Source: Lyngbya aestuarii BL J (GTDB lineage: Bacteria > Cyanobacteriota > Cyanobacteriia > Cyanobacteriales > Microcoleaceae). From it: a stretch of 64,000 nucleotides of DNA. Under the pieces are notes generated by a model. It saw only the letters and a list, made by a program, of their open reading frames with translations. It did not search any database and was not told where the DNA came from. Positions within the stretch are counted from its first letter, which is position 1; every line of letters starts with the position of its first letter. Made by a program: the position numbers and the translations under genes. Where the stretch lies: NCBI RefSeq assembly GCF_000478195.2, contig NZ_AUZM01000015.1, forward strand, positions 1 through 64,000. The letters are read 5' to 3'. Shown here one piece after another: positions 25,668-63,852 of this stretch.

Positions 25668-27377
25668 ATGTCATCAATTCAACATCAGTCACCTATAATG
25701 TGTTCTGTTCATCAAGAGTCTCAAATGACTGAACAACCCGGCGGCCCTATTCCTCCTTTCTCAACAACATATATTGAGCGTTCTCCTCTCGAAAAACAAG
25801 CCAAAGAAGCGATTGAACAACCGGGATGTTTACTGCGAATCAAAAGCCCTCGAAAAATGGGAAAAACTTCCCTAATTCTCCAGGTCAAAACTCACGCAAT
25901 TGGCTTGGGTTACTCTACAGTTCATCTTGATTTTCGCCGGATAGAATCTAGAGTTTTAAGCGATTTTAACACCTTTTTACGGTGGTTTTGTAAAACTCTC
26001 AGTTATCAACTTAAACTCGAAGATGAACTCGAAGACTACTGGGATGAAGATATAGGCGGCAAAATTAGTTGTACTGCTTACCTCTACAACTGTATCTTAG
26101 AAAAACTAGAAACTCCCCTCTTACTTGTTCTCAGTGAAATTGACCATTTATTTGAACACCCCCAAATTTACCAAGATTTTTTACCTTTATTGCGTTCTTG
26201 GTATGAAGAAGCAAAACAAGAAGAAAGCATCCAAAAACTGAGGTTAATTTTAACCTATTCTACAGAAATTTATGTCCCTTTAAAAATCAATCAATCTCCC
26301 TTTAATGTTGGCTCAGTGCTTCAACTTACCCGGTTTAACTTAGAACAAACAGAAGCCTTAGTTTGTTGCTATGGATTCTTATCCACTCTGAGTAAAACGA
26401 TAGCAGATCAACTCTACGAATGGGTAAACGGACATCCCTATTTAACTCAACTGGCTTTGTATCATCTGAACAAGCAAATAGAAGTAAATTCAGAGACTCC
26501 AGAAGTAAAACTCGCTCATATTATAGAAGAATCTGCCACACTATCAGGGATTTATAGCGATCATCTACGACGTTGTTTAATCCACTTAAAACAAAATCAA
26601 GAACTCGCCACCGCTTTTCAATACGTTGTTGAAATCGATGAGGCCATTACACTCGATCCCATTTTAGCCTATCAGTTAGAAAGTCTAGGGCTAGTGACAC
26701 TCATCGGTAATCAAGTCATTTGTAGTTGTCAACTTTATCGACAATACTTTAGAACCTACAAACTAGACACCATTGATCAACATCCATTAATTCACCATAT
26801 CAAACAACTCGAAAAACAAAATATAACCCTAAAAAGCCTCTCAGAAACAGATGAATTAACCGGACTTGCGAATCGTCGTTGGTTTAACAGCACCATTGAA
26901 CAAGAATGGGAACGGTTAGGAAATCAAAATAATTCCTTATCCCTTCTTCTTGTCGATATCGATTATTTCAAAGTCTATAACGATCTCTACGGTCATCCGG
27001 CTGGAGATGTTTGTCTCCAAAAAATTGCTCAAGCCCTAACAGAATGTATTAACCGTTCAACAGATTTAGTTTCTCGTTATGGGGGAGAAGAATTTGCAAT
27101 TTTGCTTCCGATGAGTAACACCCAGAGGGGAGTGCAAGTCGCCCAACGCATTCAACACCAAATAAAAGCCTTACAAATTACTGTTGAAAATCCTCGGGTG
27201 ATTTGCTTTCCAGAGAACGTTGTAACAGTTAGTATTGGAGTCGCAAGTATTATTCCTTCATCCGATTTTAATTGGCGAGATTTGGTCGAAGCGGCTGATC
27301 GATCTCTCTATCAATCTAAGAGAAAAGGACGAAATCGGATTACTGTCAGTCAAGCTTTTAGCGAGTTCAATGAATAG
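25668..27377 (+). CDS. AAA-like NTPase domain fused to GGDEF diguanylate cyclase
   Basis: 569 residues. The N-terminal 380 residues are an AAA-like (AAA_35/STAND-type) domain. Its Walker A is the modified [10 protein letters not shown] (G65-K66-T67), with [15 protein letters not shown] as Walker B. A short linker ([15 protein letters not shown]) leads to a GGDEF domain at about 395-560. GGEEF is at 472-476, with the inhibitory I-site RSTD five residues before it. It should make cyclic di-GMP, possibly gated by nucleotide state of the first domain. The next gene starts inside its last codons (ATGAATAG), so the two are coupled. The ATG at 25668 is followed by other possible starts at residues 11 and 20. 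Confidence 0.88.
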
Positions 27378-30300
27378 CCGTTTCTATCAAGTTGGGGGAA
27401 GCTTAAAAGTTGGCATAGAAACCTATGTCGAACGACAGGCTGATACTGACGTTTATCAAGCTCTAAAGGCGGGAGAATTTTGCTATGTATTCAACGCCCG
27501 TCAAATGGGAAAATCTTCCCTTTTGTGTCAGACTCGTTACCGACTGCAACAGGAAAAGGTTCGCTCCTCGTTTCTAGATATTACCCGAATTGGTAGTAAT
27601 GATGTTACACCCGTTCAATGGTATAGAGGAATGATTTATGAACTGTGGCGGGGATTTAATTTGCCCAAACCCGCTACTCTCAAAACCTGGTTGCAGAGTC
27701 AAGAGGATTTCTCTCCCCTACAGCAACTTAGTCATTTTATTGAAGATATTTTATTGACTCAACTGAGCGAAGAAAAGTTAGTTATTTTTATCGATGAAAT
27801 TGATAGCATTCTGAGTCTAAATTTTCAGGTTGATGATTTGTTTGCTCTGATTCGTTTTTGCTACAATCAACGGGAGGTTAATCCTGACTATAATCGCCTC
27901 ACCTTTGCTTTATTTGGAGTGGCTACACCTTCCGATCTAATTCGAGACAAAACTCGTACCCCGTTTAATATTGGACAAGCTATTGATTTAGAGAACTTGA
28001 GTTTAAATCAATCTATGAGTCTTGCTCAAGGATTTCCAGTTTCTCAAACCAAGAGTAAAGCGATTTTAACGGAAGTTTTTTGCTGGACAAATGGGCAGCC
28101 GTTTTTAACCCAAAAGTTGTGTTATCTTGTTCAAGGAAAATTAGAAGAAATCTCTATAAAAGATCCAGAATCAGCCCTAGAATATATTAGTCCAGAACGC
28201 TGTGTCTCAGAAATTGTGCGATCGCAGATTATTGAAAATTGGGAATTTCAAGACGAACCCGAACACCTGAGAACCATTCGCGATCGCCTTTTATACAATA
28301 AACAATTAGTCGGACGAATTTTAGGGATTTATCAACAAATCTTGCAAAGTAAAAATATTAACTCCGATAAAAGCAGCGAACAAATTGAGTTATTGTTATC
28401 GGGGTTAGTGATTAAACAAAATAGCAGTTTGCGAGTTAGAAATCCGATATATGCGGAAGTTTTTAACCTCGAATGGGTAAGCCAACAGCTTCAGGCTTTA
28501 CGACCCTATTCGCAAGCATTTGATGCTTGGATCGCTTCCGAAAAAACCGACGAATCTCGTTTATTGAGCGGACAGGCTTTGCGAGATGCTCAAACTTGGA
28601 TGCAGGGTAAAAGTCTGAGTAATTTAGATTATCAATTCTTGGCAGCTAGCGAGGAAAGCGAGCGTCAAAAAACTCAGCAAACCTATGAAGCTGAACGCGC
28701 TAAAACTATAGAAACCCAACTCAAACAAGAGCGTAAAAATGCCAAGTTACAACGCTATTTGCTCGGTTCAATTAGTATAGGCTTTTTGGTCGCCGTTGGT
28801 TCGGGATTGATCGCATTTAATCAACGCCAGCAAGCCCTCCAACAGGAACAGCAAGCCACAGTTCAAGAAATTCAAGCCTTAATTGACTCCTCAGAAGAAC
28901 TGTTTACCTCTCACAATCGCTTAAAGAGTTTAGTGACGGTAATTAAAGCAAAACGGCGATTAAACAACCTCAAAACTATTCCATCCGATCTCAATAAAAA
29001 TGTGACAGACACATTGCGCCAAGCCATTTTAGGAACGGCAGAATTTAATCGTTTGCCGGGTCATAAAGGCTGGATTCTTGCCGTTGATACGAGTCCGGAT
29101 GGTGAAATAATCGCCACCGGAAGCAGCGATAGAACTATTAAACTTTGGAATCGTCACGGTCAGTTACTTAAGACTTTACAACATGATGGAACTGTTCATG
29201 CCTTAAGTTTTAGTCCTGATAGTAAAATCCTTGTTTCTGCGAGTTTAAACGGTACAATTTATATTTGGAATCATCAGGGTCAACTTTTAAAAAGTTTCAT
29301 CGGTCATCAAGGGGCAATTTGGAATATTAGCTTCAGTCCGGATGGTAAAATTTTCGCCTCAGCCAGTGGAGATAAAACTGTTAAAGTGTGGAATTTAGAA
29401 GGTGAACTTCTCAACACTTTGATCGGACATCAATCACCTGTTTGGGGAGTTGCCTTTCATCCGGAGGGAAATATGATTGCCTCGGGAAGTGTGGATGGAC
29501 AGGTAAAATTTTGGAATCTTAATGGTCAAATTAATTGGAGTATAAAAGCACATGAAGCACCGATTTGGGATGTGGAATTTGCTTGGTTCAAAGATGCAAA
29601 CGGACGGAATAATCCGATTATTGTTTCAGCAGGTGGGGATAGTAGGATTAAACTTTGGACAACAGAGGGAAAATTAATCAAAACCCTAGAAGGTCATCAG
29701 GGTGAAGTCTTAGAAATTGATATCAGTTCAGATGGAAATCAAATTGCTTCTGCAAGTGCGGATAAAACCGTTCGACTCTGGACAATACAGGGTACTGCAT
29801 TAAGAAAATTTAAAGGACACCAATCCTCAATTAGAGCGGTAGCATTTGCCAGAGATGATCGAACCGTGATTTCGGGTAGCGATGATAATACAATTCGATT
29901 ATGGAAAACAAAAAATTATTTTTATCAAGCTTTTACTGGACACAATGGAACAATTTGGCAAGTTGAATTTAATCCTAATGATGAAACTATAGCATCGGCA
30001 AGCTCTGATTATACAGTTAAATTTTGGTCAATTGATGGGACAATTAAACAAAGCGTAGAGGGCAGAGAAATGGCTTTTGCATCTATTCAAAATTATACTT
30101 TGGGTTTAGAAGACATAAGGATAATTGCACAATCTGATGGTACAATAGAATTTTGGAATCCCGAGGAAAAAATTAATGCTTTCTCCACTCATTCAAATTT
30201 TATTTGGGATATTTCCTTGAGTTCAGACGGTGAAATATTGGCTTCTAGCAGCAATGATAAAACGGCTAAATTGTGGAATCTAGATGGTCGTTTAATTTCG

Positions 30301-30891
30301 ACTTTAGTTGGACATAAAGCGAGGGTTTATCAAGTTCAGTTTACTCCAAATAATCAAACCGTTATAACCATCAGTGCAGATGGGACGGCTAAACTTTGGA
30401 AAACAGATGGTACTTTACTAAAAAGCTTAAACGCTCATAGCAATGGAATTTGGGGTCTGGATATCAGTCCAGATGGCGAAATTATTGCCACGGCGAGTTT
30501 AGATGATACTCTAAAACTCTGGAACATTGATGGTACACTTTTACAAACTTTTAAAGGAAAATGTCTGGGAATATCTTCGGTTGATTTTAGTCCCGATGGT
30601 CAAACTTTAGCAATAGGTTGTGGTGACGGTTCGGTGAAAGTGTTAAAAATAGATGGAACCGAGATAGTTAAACTGAAAATTCACGACAGTAATGTTTGGG
30701 ATGTTGCTTTCAGTCCCGACGGTCGATTTATTGCTTCAGGTGGAGACGATCGGGATATTATTTTATGGGATTTAGAGGAAATTTTAAAGTTGGATGAACT
30801 CACTTACGCCTGCAATTTTGTTAAAGATTATCTGCAAAATAGTTCGGAAGTTGAAGAAAGCGATCGCTCCTTATGTGATGATATAAATTGA
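27370..30891 (+). CDS. AAA-like NTPase with transmembrane helix and 14 WD40 repeats
   Basis: 1173 residues from the ATG at 27370, which overlaps the stop of the preceding gene by eight bases. The N-terminal AAA-like domain has QMGKSS (G47-K48-S49) and VIFIDEIDS as Walker A and B. Around 461-483 there is a hydrophobic helix ([20 protein letters not shown]) in a coiled-coil stretch. From about 560, 14 WD40 repeats follow, enough for two seven-bladed propellers; repeat 9 is degenerate. The C-terminal ACNFVKDYL and ESDRSLCDD are common in cyanobacterial WD40 STAND proteins. Likely a scaffold or signal-sensing NTPase; ligand unknown. Confidence 0.9.
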
Positions 30892-36679: not shown

Positions 36680-37117
36680 ATGTCTAAGCCCGTTATTTTA
36701 TGTGTCGATGATGAATCTGTCGTTTTAGATAGTTTAAAAATTCAGCTTAAAAATGCTTTTCGAGATGCTTATAGCTATGAAATGGCGGAAAGTTCTGATG
36801 AAGCTTGGGAAATTTTAGAAGAACTTTGTGAGGATAATAGTCATGTTCTCGTCATTGTTTCTGATTGGTTAATGCCGGGAATGAAAGGGGATGAATTTTT
36901 AATCAAAGTACATCAAAGATTTCCCAAAATTTTAAAGATCATGCTGACCGGACAAGCAGATATGGAAGCTGTAGAAAAGGCGATAGAACAAGCCAGTTTG
37001 TATCGATGTTTATCGAAGCCTTGGAACAGTGAAGAACTGATTACCACGATTAAATCAGGGTTAACTAACTATCAATATTCTCAAAACTATGAGCAAACCA
37101 GTGGTGATTTGTGTTGA
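36680..37117 (+). CDS. Single-domain response regulator
   Basis: 145 residues consisting of a receiver domain with D62 in SDWLMPGMKGDE, acidic pair DDE at residues 11-13, and SKPW near the C-terminus. The N-terminus (SKPVILCVDDE) is nearly the same as that of the next gene, so the two arose by duplication. Its last 29 bases overlap the start of the GGDEF gene. It may act as a phosphate sink or as a direct partner of the REC-GGDEF protein. Confidence 0.9.
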   Translation: MSKPVILCVDDESVVLDSLKIQLKNAFRDAYSYEMAESSDEAWEILEELCEDNSHVLVIVSDWLMPGMKGDEFLIKVHQRFPKILKIMLTGQADMEAVEKAIEQASLYRCLSKPWNSEELITTIKSGLTNYQYSQNYEQTSGDLC

Positions 37118-58897: not shown

Positions 58898-59893
58898 CTA
58901 GAATAGTGGCTCATCTTCCAATAATTCAACCGTCGAACTGATTAAATTTTGTTGAGTTTGAGACAATCGAGAAAAACTTTTAAACCCGTTTAAAATCGGT
59001 TCAAGCTGAGATTTTGCATCTTCATAACCTTGTTGTTTCAACTCCAAAATTCGTTCGGAATCAAAGTTGAGCAAACTTTTTAAATCAGAATTGAGCAGTT
59101 TTTGAGGTCGAATTTCAATAATCGTTTGATTGGGAAAATCATGGCGGTTCCAAATCTGACCACTCCTTAAGTGTATCACAATCACATGAGTACAACCCCG
59201 AGCCGCCAATGCACCCAACGGAACGTTATCAACCAAACCCCCATCAATGTAGTTTTTCCCGTTAACGCTGCGACAGGGAAAAGCCAGGGGAATAGCGACA
59301 CTCGCCAACAATAAATTATAAATTGTTTCGTTATCTGGGCAATCTTGAATACACAACCATTCTGCACCCGTTCCCGTTTTAGCGCGAATCAAATCGAATA
59401 ACCAATCATAACCCAAACCGGGTATTTTTAACGAAGGAAAAACCGTCACCCAGAGTTCAATTCCTCGTTTTAATTCAACTGGATTAATCGTTTCTCTTAC
59501 CAGATATTCTATCGGAGTTGGATCGTAAATTGCAGTTCTATCTTTCAAGATTCCGCTTTCAATTAAAAAATGTAACATCCACTCTCGAAAAGTGGGGATA
59601 AAAGTTTGAGCGGCGTAACTAAGAAGATGATAAATTTGTTCAGTATTGGGTTTGAGAATTTCAACTTCTCCGAGATTTGTCCAGAGTTCATTTAGCTGTT
59701 GAACGGCGTTAGAAAACGGGCGATCAGAGGCTAAAACCGCCCCGTTGAGAGCGCCTACACTGGTTCCGGCGATAATTTTGGGTTGAAAGTTCAATTCGGC
59801 TAAATAGCGGAGTGCGCCCGCTTGATAAGCACCTTTTGCACCGCCTCCGGTTAATACTAATCCCCATTGAGAATTGAGAAAGTTTTGATTCAT
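58898..59893 (-). CDS. Patatin-like phospholipase
   Basis: 331 residues. The oxyanion loop TGGGAKGAY lies near residue 15-23, the nucleophile elbow G43-T-S45-V-G47 (AGTSVGALNG) next, and the catalytic dyad Asp is in DGGLVDNVP. Such enzymes cleave acyl chains of membrane lipids. The ATG at 59893 leads into the conserved strand WGLVLTGGG. Upstream, 83 bases separate it from the RdcB-like gene on the same strand, so it might be the third gene of that operon. Substrate unknown. Confidence 0.92.
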   Translation of the reverse strand: MNQNFLNSQWGLVLTGGGAKGAYQAGALRYLAELNFQPKIIAGTSVGALNGAVLASDRPFSNAVQQLNELWTNLGEVEILKPNTEQIYHLLSYAAQTFIPTFREWMLHFLIESGILKDRTAIYDPTPIEYLVRETINPVELKRGIELWVTVFPSLKIPGLGYDWLFDLIRAKTGTGAEWLCIQDCPDNETIYNLLLASVAIPLAFPCRSVNGKNYIDGGLVDNVPLGALAARGCTHVIVIHLRSGQIWNRHDFPNQTIIEIRPQKLLNSDLKSLLNFDSERILELKQQGYEDAKSQLEPILNGFKSFSRLSQTQQNLISSTVELLEDEPLF

Positions 59894-59976: not shown

Positions 59977-60969
59977 TTACCGAATTAAATTAACACAATC
60001 ATTGGCAATTTCTTCGACAATCGCCGTTACAAACTCTCTTGCATCGGTGGTTTGAGAAATCCGATCTATTTGTTGGCGACAAAGAGCGATCGCACATTTT
60101 CCAATTTGTTTCGGTTGGGCGTCTGGGGGTAAAATTGCGAGTTCTAAAGTTGTACCCAAAGTAAATAATAATGGTGTGGTTTGTAGCCGCGAAAACCGAA
60201 GCGATCGCACTTCTAATAACGCCGCAGTCAGTTCGCGATCGCCTGCGGATATTTCTTTACAGGTTTGATTGAGTAAATTTGCGAGTCCAAAAAATTGTTT
60301 GGAAGGGGGTTGACTGTGGGCTAGTATTTTATTGACCACAAGGGGACGAAATCTTTTAGTGTCGCCCGTTACTTGTTCGTAAATTGCAACGGAACTGCTG
60401 AATATTTCCCGGGTTAACAGTGCTATTTGTATCGCCCAGGGTAAGTTTGTATAGGTTTGTTCCGCCATCCAAGCGGTTAGAATTCGATCCAAATCTTCCG
60501 ATGCGGCGATTCTAATTTCTAGCTGATAAATTCGGTTTTCTAGTTCATTTAATCGCTGGTTAATTGCGTTGATTGAGTTTTCTAGATGTTCACTCAGAGA
60601 TAATATTGCTTGTTTTTGACGGCGAATGGCTGACCGTGCTTCTAATAATGATTGTTGGGTAATTGTTAGGGCGACTTGGCTAATACTGAGAGAATCTGTT
60701 AGTTCTAATACCCAATTATACAACGCTTCTTGACCTGCGATCAGGTTGCCATCGAGTAACAGTTGACGTTGGCGATCGCTTCCGGTTAAGCTGTCAAAGA
60801 GTTGTCCGAAATATCCTCTACTTTTGCGATAACGAATTAAGTCTTTATTGATGTCTATTCCGTTAACTAAATCGACCAATGCTTTATCGCTAACTAGGGG
60901 AATTCGTTGTTGGAGTTGTTGAAGGCGATCGCTTAATTCTGTTTGGGGTTGTCGGTGAGTTGAGAACAT
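59977..60969 (-). CDS. RdcB/YjcZ-like partner protein of the dynamin-like GTPase
   Basis: 330 residues, no membrane segment. Central helical region about 95-150 is coiled coil (SAIRRQKQAILSLSEHLENSI...). The segment RQLLLDGNLIAGQEALYNWVLELTDSLSISQVAL resembles, as far as I can judge, the YjcZ-type (diguanylate cyclase regulator RdcB) family. In E. coli the dynamin-like YjdA (RdcA) and YjcZ (RdcB) genes are adjacent in the order GTPase then partner, and together activate a diguanylate cyclase. Here the order and orientation are the same, 72 bases apart. The family assignment is by memory of pattern and needs a profile search. Confidence 0.6.
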   Translation of the reverse strand: MFSTHRQPQTELSDRLQQLQQRIPLVSDKALVDLVNGIDINKDLIRYRKSRGYFGQLFDSLTGSDRQRQLLLDGNLIAGQEALYNWVLELTDSLSISQVALTITQQSLLEARSAIRRQKQAILSLSEHLENSINAINQRLNELENRIYQLEIRIAASEDLDRILTAWMAEQTYTNLPWAIQIALLTREIFSSSVAIYEQVTGDTKRFRPLVVNKILAHSQPPSKQFFGLANLLNQTCKEISAGDRELTAALLEVRSLRFSRLQTTPLLFTLGTTLELAILPPDAQPKQIGKCAIALCRQQIDRISQTTDAREFVTAIVEEIANDCVNLIR

Positions 60970-61002
60970 TTTAACTGGGTAAATGGGATTAAGTTGGTTA
61001 GT

Positions 61003-61071
61003 TAGACAGACAGGGAATTAATTCCCTGCCCGAGTGATTGACTATTGATCAGTTGGCATTAATTGCTCGTT
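61003..61071. repeat. Copy A of a duplicated segment at the 3' end of the GTPase gene
   Basis: The segment contains the perfect palindrome CAGGGAATTAATTCCCTG (61011-61028), then GAGTGATTGACTATT and AATTGCTCGTT, and covers the last codons of the GTPase gene. A related segment lies at 63787-63852, about 2.8 kb away in the same orientation. The palindrome may act as a terminator between the GTPase and its partner. Confidence 0.7.
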
Positions 61072-63417
61072 TCGCCCCTTGTATGAGTTTACTGTTTCAA
61101 TTTTTTGGCTTGCCTCTTGATCAATCAAGTGAAGCTCATCAATTAGGTGTTTTTGCTGTTCAAGAGAAAGTTCTTTATCTTTCTGAGCTTGTTTCAAACT
61201 GTCTCGATAATTCCCCAGATAAGCATTAAGCTGATCAAAGAAAGTATCAATTCGTTCTTGGAAGTCTTCTTTAAGATACTCAGAAATATCCTGATTGATC
61301 TTACCAATGCTTGCTTCGAGAGAAGAATTAATCTGAGTAACTAAATCATTTAGAGAAACAACATAGTAATCTTCTTGGATGTCAGGTTTTTTGTAAGTTT
61401 CTTCTTGCACGCGAGGAACTATCCAAAGCCAATGCCAAAAAGAACGCTTTTTAACTGTTCGCGTACCATACCCTCCGTCTCGCAGGCGAGTTCGAGTTTT
61501 GACGTAAGGCTGTATTGTTATTACATCAGACTCTAAAGTAGGTGCGGGTAAATCCAAGTCAATATCGAAGGTTTTATTCAAGCGTTTTTTCGCTTTTTCG
61601 ATGATCGGCTTTGTTTCTTTTTCTAAAGATTTTGTCAATTCTGTTCGAGCTTGTTTAACCTCTTGTTCAGCATCTTTACGAACACTTGACATGATAACTT
61701 CCGCTCTTTGCCTTGACCAAGCAACCGCTTGTTCAGAAAAATATTGTGCTTCTGGCTCTGTCTTAAATTCAACCATTCCTGAAGCTTTATATTCTAGAGC
61801 AGATTGGATTAATTGTATGGGAATCCGCTTTGAAAATTTATCGATTCCGATCCTTGCTTTTTTTATAACATTCCCCCGTTCATAGTCTTCTTCAAGAAAA
61901 AAATTTTCTAGACTTACTTTAGCCTCCTTTTTTAGTTGTTTAAGAATCTGATTTAACTTGCTCTCAAGTTTTGTTCTTTTGGAATCAAAATTTCTTAATT
62001 TATTTCGACATTCTTCAAGATTGTGTAAATCTTTTTCGAGCGCACCAACTTCTAGCCTCAAATCTTCCTCACTTTTGGCGATCGCGCTACCCCGAAGTAT
62101 AACATCATCTAATAATTCTAAGAGATGAGAATTAGTGACATTGAGTGCAGACATCATACAGCGAGGCGCCGCAGTTTCCATCAGTACATTAATTGCTTGA
62201 TCAAGAAAGGGTGCAAATCCTGACTTCTTCCACATTTTTAGAGCTTTTTTCTCTAGTTCTTCCGTTGTTGCATCCTCCAGATCTTCTTCCCAGTCCATCC
62301 CAAATACTTCTTGAGCCAGTGATTTTGCTGTGACTAATTCTGTTAATTCAGCGTCGGGATTTTGTTGTAACTCCAATAAAAATTTAGTGGCACAAAAAGC
62401 GCGAATAGCAGCGATTTCAAAGACTTGTTCTGTATCGCTAGACTCACTAAGTTCTAAGTCAGAAGCAACAAACTTTTTAACATCTTCAGGGGTCATATCT
62501 CCTTGACGACGTTGATCAACTTTATTGACTAGAACATAAAGGTTTTCTTTTCCGAGTAAATCAATAATCGGTTTAACCTGTTTTTTTACACCTTCTGCGG
62601 CTTGGTTATTTAGCTGTGTAAAATCGAGAACAATCAACACAATAGAACTTTTTCGTAATTGATCTTCTACCACAGCACTCAGCCAAAGGTTTTCTCCCGC
62701 TTCATTGGGTCCCGGAGTATCAACAATCACTAAATTACCGAGTTTGTCGGATTGTTCACCTTCCTGAGAATGCCAAAAAGGTGTTTCAATACGAGGAACA
62801 TCTGGGAGTTTGAACAGTGGATCATTTATTGGATCTAAAACGCTACACAGACGAACAATATCATTAAGAACGCTGAGGATTTTGTGAATTTCTTCTCGTC
62901 CTTTATTTTCTGGTTTTAGCAGCGAAACACCATAACTTTGAATATCCCGTACCAAATTATTTAAGTGGGGAAATTGAGCAATTCTTTTTTGAGTTTCTTC
63001 CGAACCTAATTCGTTGATTTTTCGCTGCAAACTCTCAAGAGTTTCTTGAAAAATAGATAAAACTTCATCATCTAGCGTGAGAATGGGTTCAGTTAAGTCA
63101 GCCTTGAAAACAATTTCTGTTGGAATTGTCGTCATTGCAGCGTTACGACTGGGAAGCAAATCTTGACCGATAATTGCGTTAATAATTGTAGATTTACCCG
63201 CTTTCATCGGCGCAACAATTGCCATTCTTAACTCTAAGTTCTCAACCTTTTGAGTCTCGTTTTCAACTTGCTTTTGAAATTCTCCGTATTTTTGACCGAA
63301 ATCTTTTGAACTCAAAACAGAATTAGCGCGACTCATTAATTTACTGACTTCTTTTAACAGGTCAATCACATCCTGTTGCAGATCTTGGACACTGGGTTTA
63401 AATTCGGTCCCATCCAT
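61042..63417 (-). CDS. Dynamin-like GTPase (CrfC/YjdA/RdcA-like)
   Basis: 791 residues. The G domain has P-loop APMKAGKST (69-77, Ala replacing the first Gly), switch/G3 VDTPGPNEAGE around 228-238 and G4 LVNKVDQ around 295-301. MAIVAPMKAGKSTIINAI with LLPSRNAAMTTIPTEI, and LDFTQLNNQA, are close to the E. coli CrfC/YjdA pattern. The C-terminal half is long helical coiled coil with a basic GTRTVKKRSFWHWLWIV patch that may touch membrane. The ATG has AGGA ten bases upstream. Family roles reported in E. coli are replication-fork colocalisation and control of a diguanylate cyclase with its partner. Confidence 0.85.
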   Translation of the reverse strand: MDGTEFKPSVQDLQQDVIDLLKEVSKLMSRANSVLSSKDFGQKYGEFQKQVENETQKVENLELRMAIVAPMKAGKSTIINAIIGQDLLPSRNAAMTTIPTEIVFKADLTEPILTLDDEVLSIFQETLESLQRKINELGSEETQKRIAQFPHLNNLVRDIQSYGVSLLKPENKGREEIHKILSVLNDIVRLCSVLDPINDPLFKLPDVPRIETPFWHSQEGEQSDKLGNLVIVDTPGPNEAGENLWLSAVVEDQLRKSSIVLIVLDFTQLNNQAAEGVKKQVKPIIDLLGKENLYVLVNKVDQRRQGDMTPEDVKKFVASDLELSESSDTEQVFEIAAIRAFCATKFLLELQQNPDAELTELVTAKSLAQEVFGMDWEEDLEDATTEELEKKALKMWKKSGFAPFLDQAINVLMETAAPRCMMSALNVTNSHLLELLDDVILRGSAIAKSEEDLRLEVGALEKDLHNLEECRNKLRNFDSKRTKLESKLNQILKQLKKEAKVSLENFFLEEDYERGNVIKKARIGIDKFSKRIPIQLIQSALEYKASGMVEFKTEPEAQYFSEQAVAWSRQRAEVIMSSVRKDAEQEVKQARTELTKSLEKETKPIIEKAKKRLNKTFDIDLDLPAPTLESDVITIQPYVKTRTRLRDGGYGTRTVKKRSFWHWLWIVPRVQEETYKKPDIQEDYYVVSLNDLVTQINSSLEASIGKINQDISEYLKEDFQERIDTFFDQLNAYLGNYRDSLKQAQKDKELSLEQQKHLIDELHLIDQEASQKIETVNSYKGRNEQLMPTDQ

Positions 63418-63786: not shown

Positions 63787-63852
63787 TTAGACCGGGAATT
63801 AATTCTCTGGCGGAGTGATTGACTATTTATTAGTTCAGATGAATTGCTCGTT
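63787..63852. repeat. Copy B of the GTPase 3'-end segment
   Basis: Shares GGGAATTAATTC, GAGTGATTGACTATT and AATTGCTCGTT with copy A at 61003-61071. Read leftwards it can encode the ending GNEQFI-stop, resembling the GTPase ending GRNEQLMPTDQ-stop. It is probably the tail of a lost paralogue. Confidence 0.6.

Follow-up and report, generated by a model that had tools for sequence, protein, structure and literature searches.

The rdcA and rdcB genes of Escherichia coli (also known as yjdA and yjcZ, RdcA being the same protein as CrfC) code for a dynamin-like GTPase and its partner, which act on the MASE1 domain of the diguanylate cyclase DgcE (PMC6510439). What does a similar pair do in a cyanobacterium? 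The question is raised by a stretch of 64,000 nucleotides from Lyngbya aestuarii BL J (contig NZ_AUZM01000015.1, positions 1 to 64,000), which we will call the window. All the features described for its three genes of interest are on the minus strand. In 5' to 3' order, a GTPase gene (gene A, 61042-63417, 791 amino acids) is followed by a gene for a smaller protein (gene B, 59977-60969, 330 amino acids) and by a patatin gene (gene C, 58898-59893, 331 amino acids). A sequence-only reading had located the first two correctly, on the same strand and with the GTPase first. It had proposed that they form a cyanobacterial version of the E. coli control system, possibly linked to the lipase downstream. 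We find that the three genes form a conserved module, in which A and B probably gate the co-encoded phospholipase.

Gene A matches the Dynamin_N model of Pfam (E value 2e-13) and, from residues 15 to 757, the NCBIfam CrfC model NF007368 (E value 2.6e-56, 191.3 bits), which bears out the likeness to CrfC/YjdA that had been read from the letters. The motifs on which that likeness was based are also present. The G1/P-loop is APMKAGKST (residues 69-77, 63187-63213), whose GKS is invariant in two alignments. Alignments and reading of the sequence place the G3 motif DTPGPNEAG at residues 233-241 (62695-62721), within VDTPGPNEAGE, which starts at residue 232, and the G4 motif NKVD at residues 298-301 (62515-62526), within LVNKVDQ, found around residue 298. 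Motifs G1 to G4 and the catalytic Thr are intact. The positions equivalent to K82 and T103 of E. coli RdcA, which are required for GTP binding and hydrolysis, are invariant in the alignments.

The CrfC model is the best NCBIfam match of this GTPase, which would suggest binding to the replication clamp and a part in positioning the replication forks. Such a role is very improbable: the score is far below the equivalog cutoff of 1146 bits, and the N-terminal motif QLALP, with which E. coli CrfC binds the clamp (PMC6374313), is missing from the first 75 residues of the window GTPase and from all other members of our GTPase set except E. coli.

The AlphaFold model of gene A (predicted local distance difference test score, pLDDT, 77.9) has a G domain on top of long stalk helices, including helices 554-613 and 689-747. 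It is a model of the BDLP/SynDLP/mitofusin type: its best match in the PDB is 2j69 (E value 1.2e-12), and the best fold matches are Nostoc BDLP, SynDLP, IniA and mitofusins; LeoA (4aur) is also among the fold matches. The sequence FWHWLWIVP (residues 660-668, 61414-61440) is found in a low-confidence loop joining two long stalk helices, and most module GTPases which we have inspected have a stretch rich in Trp or other aromatic residues at the same place. We take this to be the position of the paddle in the BDLP structure. The loop is a candidate membrane paddle; hydropathy reveals no evident transmembrane stretch in gene A.

The assignment of the 330-residue protein to the YjcZ family was the weaker part of the sequence-only reading, and it has proved right. 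Gene B matches the Pfam YjcZ model PF13990 between residues 31 and 170, with an E value of 6.6e-14 and 52.3 bits, well above the cutoff of 27. Its AlphaFold model (pLDDT 79.6) is all-helical, with a single long helix of 73 residues (98-170, 60460-60678). A PDB fold search with this model gives no match; matches of gene B to coronavirus spike and to Spc24 were rejected as coiled-coil chance. Judged by their sequences, the window pair are true distant relatives of E. coli RdcA and RdcB.

Gene C is an intact open reading frame which matches the Patatin model PF01734 (6.5e-42), and the window genome has no close paralogue of it. The nucleophile Ser45 in the GTSVG motif (59753-59767) and the catalytic Asp217 in DGG (59243-59245) are intact, and both are identical in 53/53 module patatins, as are the glycines of the oxyanion-hole motif GGGAKG (residues 16-21, 59831-59848). 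This gene is found 3' of B in all module loci, so the link to the patatin which had been thought possible is real and strong: it is the third gene of a conserved unit.

We have searched 386 genomes across the cyanobacterial phylum. The RdcB-like partner is detected in 12 by protein search and in eight by the Pfam model. Two of the 12 (G140 and G365) are coiled-coil matches within proteins of 870-900 amino acids, with neither GTPase nor patatin, and were rejected. About ten genomes from at least seven genera remain, one of them with two copies; strong GTPase matches are found in about 15 genomes. When the DNA around the loci is read, a patatin gene or its remnant appears 3' of B in 11/11 cyanobacterial loci with B, the window included. 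In four of the approximately ten genomes the copies are decayed: only the end of the GTPase remains in G231, genes A and B contain stops in G308, fragments are left in G064, and G103 has a split GTPase and a truncated patatin. In five cyanobacterial genomes (L070-L074) the GTPase occurs by itself or as a tandem of two. We also note that in four related cyanobacteria (L027, L028, L029 and L033) the module comes after a Ycf46-like ATPase gene, and small toxin-antitoxin-like genes are inserted among the module genes.

The module is not limited to cyanobacteria. When 84,980 species genomes were scanned with the GTPase alignment, 80 loci were found, in Cyanobacteriota, Pseudomonadota, Bacillota, Kiritimatiellota and other phyla; the trio is present in these four phyla and also in plasmids, including those of Campylobacterota. 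Together with loci collected earlier, 97 have a usable GTPase: 48 with the order A-B-patatin, 32 with A-B, 16 where A stands alone, several of these at the end of a contig, and L027, where a second GTPase, located between A-B and the patatin, is the best one. The ratio of the first two classes is not a frequency, since the query biases the sample towards relatives of the cyanobacterial, patatin-type sequence. The loci from metagenome-assembled genomes of Verrucomicrobiota and Myxococcota have identical GTPase rows; we therefore treat them as one, and they may result from faulty binning. In the 48 complete loci the three genes are always on the same strand, most frequently with 4-nt overlaps, and the trio is usually translationally coupled. 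This survey confirms the conservation of the gene order. Since A and B are homologous to RdcA and RdcB and are neighbours in related genomes, the pairing of the two genes in the sequence-only reading stands.

Module genes are found in plasmids of Nostoc (mobilizable), of Klebsiella, Enterobacter and E. coli (many of them conjugative) and of Aliarcobacter; the GTPase gene is broken in the Aliarcobacter plasmid and in one Klebsiella plasmid. These plasmid copies are annotated one by one, as a dynamin family protein, a "diguanylate cyclase regulator RdcB family" protein and a patatin-like phospholipase. In E. coli the trio is found in genomic islands, adjoining antirestriction, yeeS/yeeT and cbeA/cbtA genes, and in one case a tRNA-Ser gene. 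It is present, over at least 80% of its length, in 2426 of the 5426 complete E. coli genomes (about 45%). Identity between the island RdcB and the core RdcB is no higher than about 31%; the island form is thus a distinct, additional copy. No phage record contains A or B. We have found no description of the trio as a system in the open literature; subscription papers and preprints were outside this search, and a prior description is possible. The RdcA/RdcB paper does not mention a patatin (PMC6510439), and in a 2026 paper rdcB and patatin-like phospholipases appear among the genes of an O118 island of E. coli, with no link drawn between them (PMC13182975).

There are also other arrangements of RdcA-like GTPases. 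Four loci (L109, L121, L127 and L138) belong to a Bacillota branch with no RdcB or patatin downstream. In an Azospirillaceae metagenome-assembled genome, the GTPase is part of a 1569 amino acid frame with a C-terminal FHA domain (L108, 773-5482). Possible GTPase pairs are found in L070 (7153-9567 and 9588-11762), with neither RdcB nor patatin, and in L027 (6318-8630 and 9642-12098) and L113 (1705-4260 and 6486-8351), with both. Several unrelated loci have another GTPase gene beside the dynamin (L119, 4175-5218; L088, 8599-10437; L164, 14349-14783; L165, 10911-11783); they are interferon-inducible or MMR_HSR1-like, or are annotated as "GTPase family protein".

How are the trio and the E. coli pair related? 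In the GTPase tree, the 32 A-B loci without patatin form a single Enterobacteriaceae clade (support 100) nested within the patatin-bearing rows. It adjoins patatin-bearing loci of Budvicia and Serratia, and then the plasmid trio. The RdcB tree gives the same picture, with one change on a branch with support 100 and the plasmid trio as nearest neighbour. Both trees are unrooted and of a quick type, with some long branches; it is implausible for the root to fall within the Enterobacteriaceae clade, which is small and terminal. This nesting means that the E. coli pair is derived and has lost the patatin. The simplest history suggested by the sequences would be a single loss from a trio, before rdcAB became a core pair, and E. 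coli rdcA-rdcB looks like the branch that lost the phospholipase. For A, B and C, the pairwise distances show a correlation of 0.90, a value reached by none of 2000 permutations in a Mantel test; thus A, B and the patatin travel and evolve together, although part of the correlation is shared host ancestry, which the permutation leaves in.

These results bear on the proposal that the cyanobacterial pair activates a diguanylate cyclase and controls cyclic di-GMP, the patatin being incidental or a second client. Both proteins are homologous to RdcA and RdcB, and the window genome does have, on other contigs, a MASE1-GGDEF protein of 474 amino acids and a MASE1 histidine kinase (the domains after MASE1 were assigned by eye). 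The two GGDEF proteins reported in the window are also real according to profile searches: an AAA_35-GGDEF protein at 25668 and a REC-GGDEF protein at 37089. Nevertheless, they are 22-38 kb from A and B and lack MASE1, which is the domain contacted by RdcA in DgcE (PMC6510439), and no GGDEF gene is recurrent beside the module in the surveyed loci. MASE1 is present in only 3/10 module-bearing cyanobacterial genomes and absent from the other seven, so cyclic di-GMP cannot be what conserves the module. The patatin is retained in all module loci, and control of cyclic di-GMP is known only for the clade without patatin (PMC6510439). A role in cyclic di-GMP signaling is not supported in this cyanobacterium, although its MASE1-GGDEF protein leaves some chance of such a link in this strain; we consider the proposal quite unlikely. 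Directly after an AAA_35-GGDEF gene, the window encodes a protein of 1218 amino acids with an AAA_35 domain and at least 13 WD40 repeats (27235-30891), and its reading frame overlaps the end of the preceding one in a different frame.

We consider it rather probable that the A/B pair gates the patatin encoded beside it. The module would consist of a soluble dynamin-like GTPase, a helical adaptor of the RdcB/YjcZ type and a cytosolic phospholipase, presumably in a physical complex in which A and B jointly restrain the lipase. A change in the nucleotide state of the GTPase would lead A and B to deliver or release the patatin at the inner membrane, where it would hydrolyze membrane lipids. In E. 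coli, where the pair turns on DgcE, a membrane protein, the contacts between RdcA, RdcB and their client and the dependence on the GTPase have been published (PMC6510439). By analogy, the most economical model would keep this logic, with the client swapped for a co-encoded phospholipase; the rdcA-rdcB lineage of Enterobacteriaceae, without patatin, would have been re-used for the control of DgcE.

The likeliest use of such a switch would be phage defense, through membrane damage or abortive infection. The 129 neighbors of trio loci from the species scan, mostly non-cyanobacterial, match 80 PADLOC families, including seven WYL regulators, restriction-modification genes, PDC candidates, Fic and JukA. 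An equal number of proteins (129), encoded in random stretches of the same genomes, match only 17 families, mostly generic ATPases; the control covers part of the tested genomes, and some loci are near-copies. The 61 neighbors of core rdcAB match two. There are 43 WYL regulators in about 68 Mb across 14 of the surveyed genomes, a density which predicts about 0.3 in the approximately 0.44 Mb surveyed: they are over-represented near the trio. Mobility, patchy presence, decay and these neighbors support a defense role, which we hold as a possibility a little short of even.

Several points weigh against this reading of the module and its use. Cyanobacterial loci are mostly found amid housekeeping genes and toxin-antitoxin pairs, as judged by eye, not in clear defense islands. 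The neighbor counts are by family and not by protein, they depend on a PADLOC library from 2023, and the generic ABC-ATPase model inflates all sets. PADLOC 2.0.0 has no system model for A or B, with weak matches of a coiled-coil type at most for B; within the trio, only the patatin resembles, weakly, effectors of the cyclic oligonucleotide-based antiphage signaling system (CBASS). Some GTPase relatives occur without B or C, and the three window genes, with gaps of 72 and 83 bp, are further apart than the usual overlapping ones.

A unit for membrane maintenance, without any role in defense, should also be considered. The dynamin would sense or remodel membrane that is damaged or curved, where the patatin would trim lipids, for example in lipid turnover or in the upkeep of vesicles or thylakoids. 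The BDLP/SynDLP/mitofusin-like model with its aromatic tip loop agrees with this idea, as does the role of Bacillus subtilis DynA in membrane surveillance (PMC8844932). In three of the four cyanobacterial loci with the Ycf46-like gene, the module precedes genes which read, by eye, as SqdB/SqdX, of sulfolipid synthesis. On the other hand, a sporadic distribution, in plasmids and islands and often decayed, is unlike that of housekeeping genes, and we consider this explanation unlikely. As for the whole picture, we suggest tentatively, as something that may well be wrong, that the trio acts against phages as a system not yet described: its dynamin-RdcB switch would set the patatin loose on the membrane, almost half of E. 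coli genomes would possess it, and RdcA/RdcB, the cyclic di-GMP regulator of E. coli, would be its domesticated remnant.

The trio has consequences for E. coli itself. RdcA and RdcB, a pair still little understood, gain an origin in evolution, and a phospholipase, not a cyclase, becomes the candidate for their ancestral client. Thousands of sequenced strains carry a second RdcAB, linked to a lipase, and the public label of "diguanylate cyclase regulator" for its B gene is probably misleading. The gating of the patatin and protection against phages may now be tested directly in ordinary laboratory E. coli.

The surroundings of gene A in the window show a further feature. A direct repeat of 64 nt (84% identical) brackets the gene, with one copy over its stop codon (61008-61071) and the other some 370 bp before the gene begins (63789-63852). 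Both copies contain the palindrome GGGAATTAATTCCC or a near copy of it. The repeat led us to suspect the relic of a second GTPase upstream, which was rejected because no protein similarity is found.

Which known systems are closest? The first is E. coli RdcA/RdcB, with the same two families, the same gene order and the same GTPase motifs, including the equivalents of K82 and T103. It differs in having no patatin, a fixed core locus and a MASE1 target; a patatin is part of the window unit, with no MASE1 partner nearby. The two GTPases are only about 30% identical over the G-domain half. The island trio of E. coli and Klebsiella, whose genes are annotated as a dynamin family protein, an RdcB family protein and a patatin-like phospholipase, has the same genes in the same order, but it is deeply diverged: its B protein is about 28-30% identical to that of the window over 150 residues. 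Gene C shares the patatin fold and the catalytic dyad with CapV-type effectors of CBASS. The match to the CBASS lipase profile is weak (4.4e-9 and 36 bits, under the cutoff of 200 bits; 4e-10 with PADLOC), its partners are a dynamin and RdcB, and no cyclic-nucleotide synthase was noted in module loci. Gene A is a dynamin-like GTPase, as are the LeoA/LeoBC dynamins, with LeoA among its fold matches, and B. subtilis DynA, which confers phage resistance (PMC8844932). These proteins have no RdcB or patatin partner; the window GTPase has no PADLOC Leo match, and its E. coli relative has a weak match to LeoBC (9.4e-6). Finally, gene A shares its fold with Nostoc BDLP (2j69) and SynDLP (7zw6), with about 12-13% identity, but these are stand-alone membrane-remodeling proteins, while gene A is part of a module with RdcB and a patatin.

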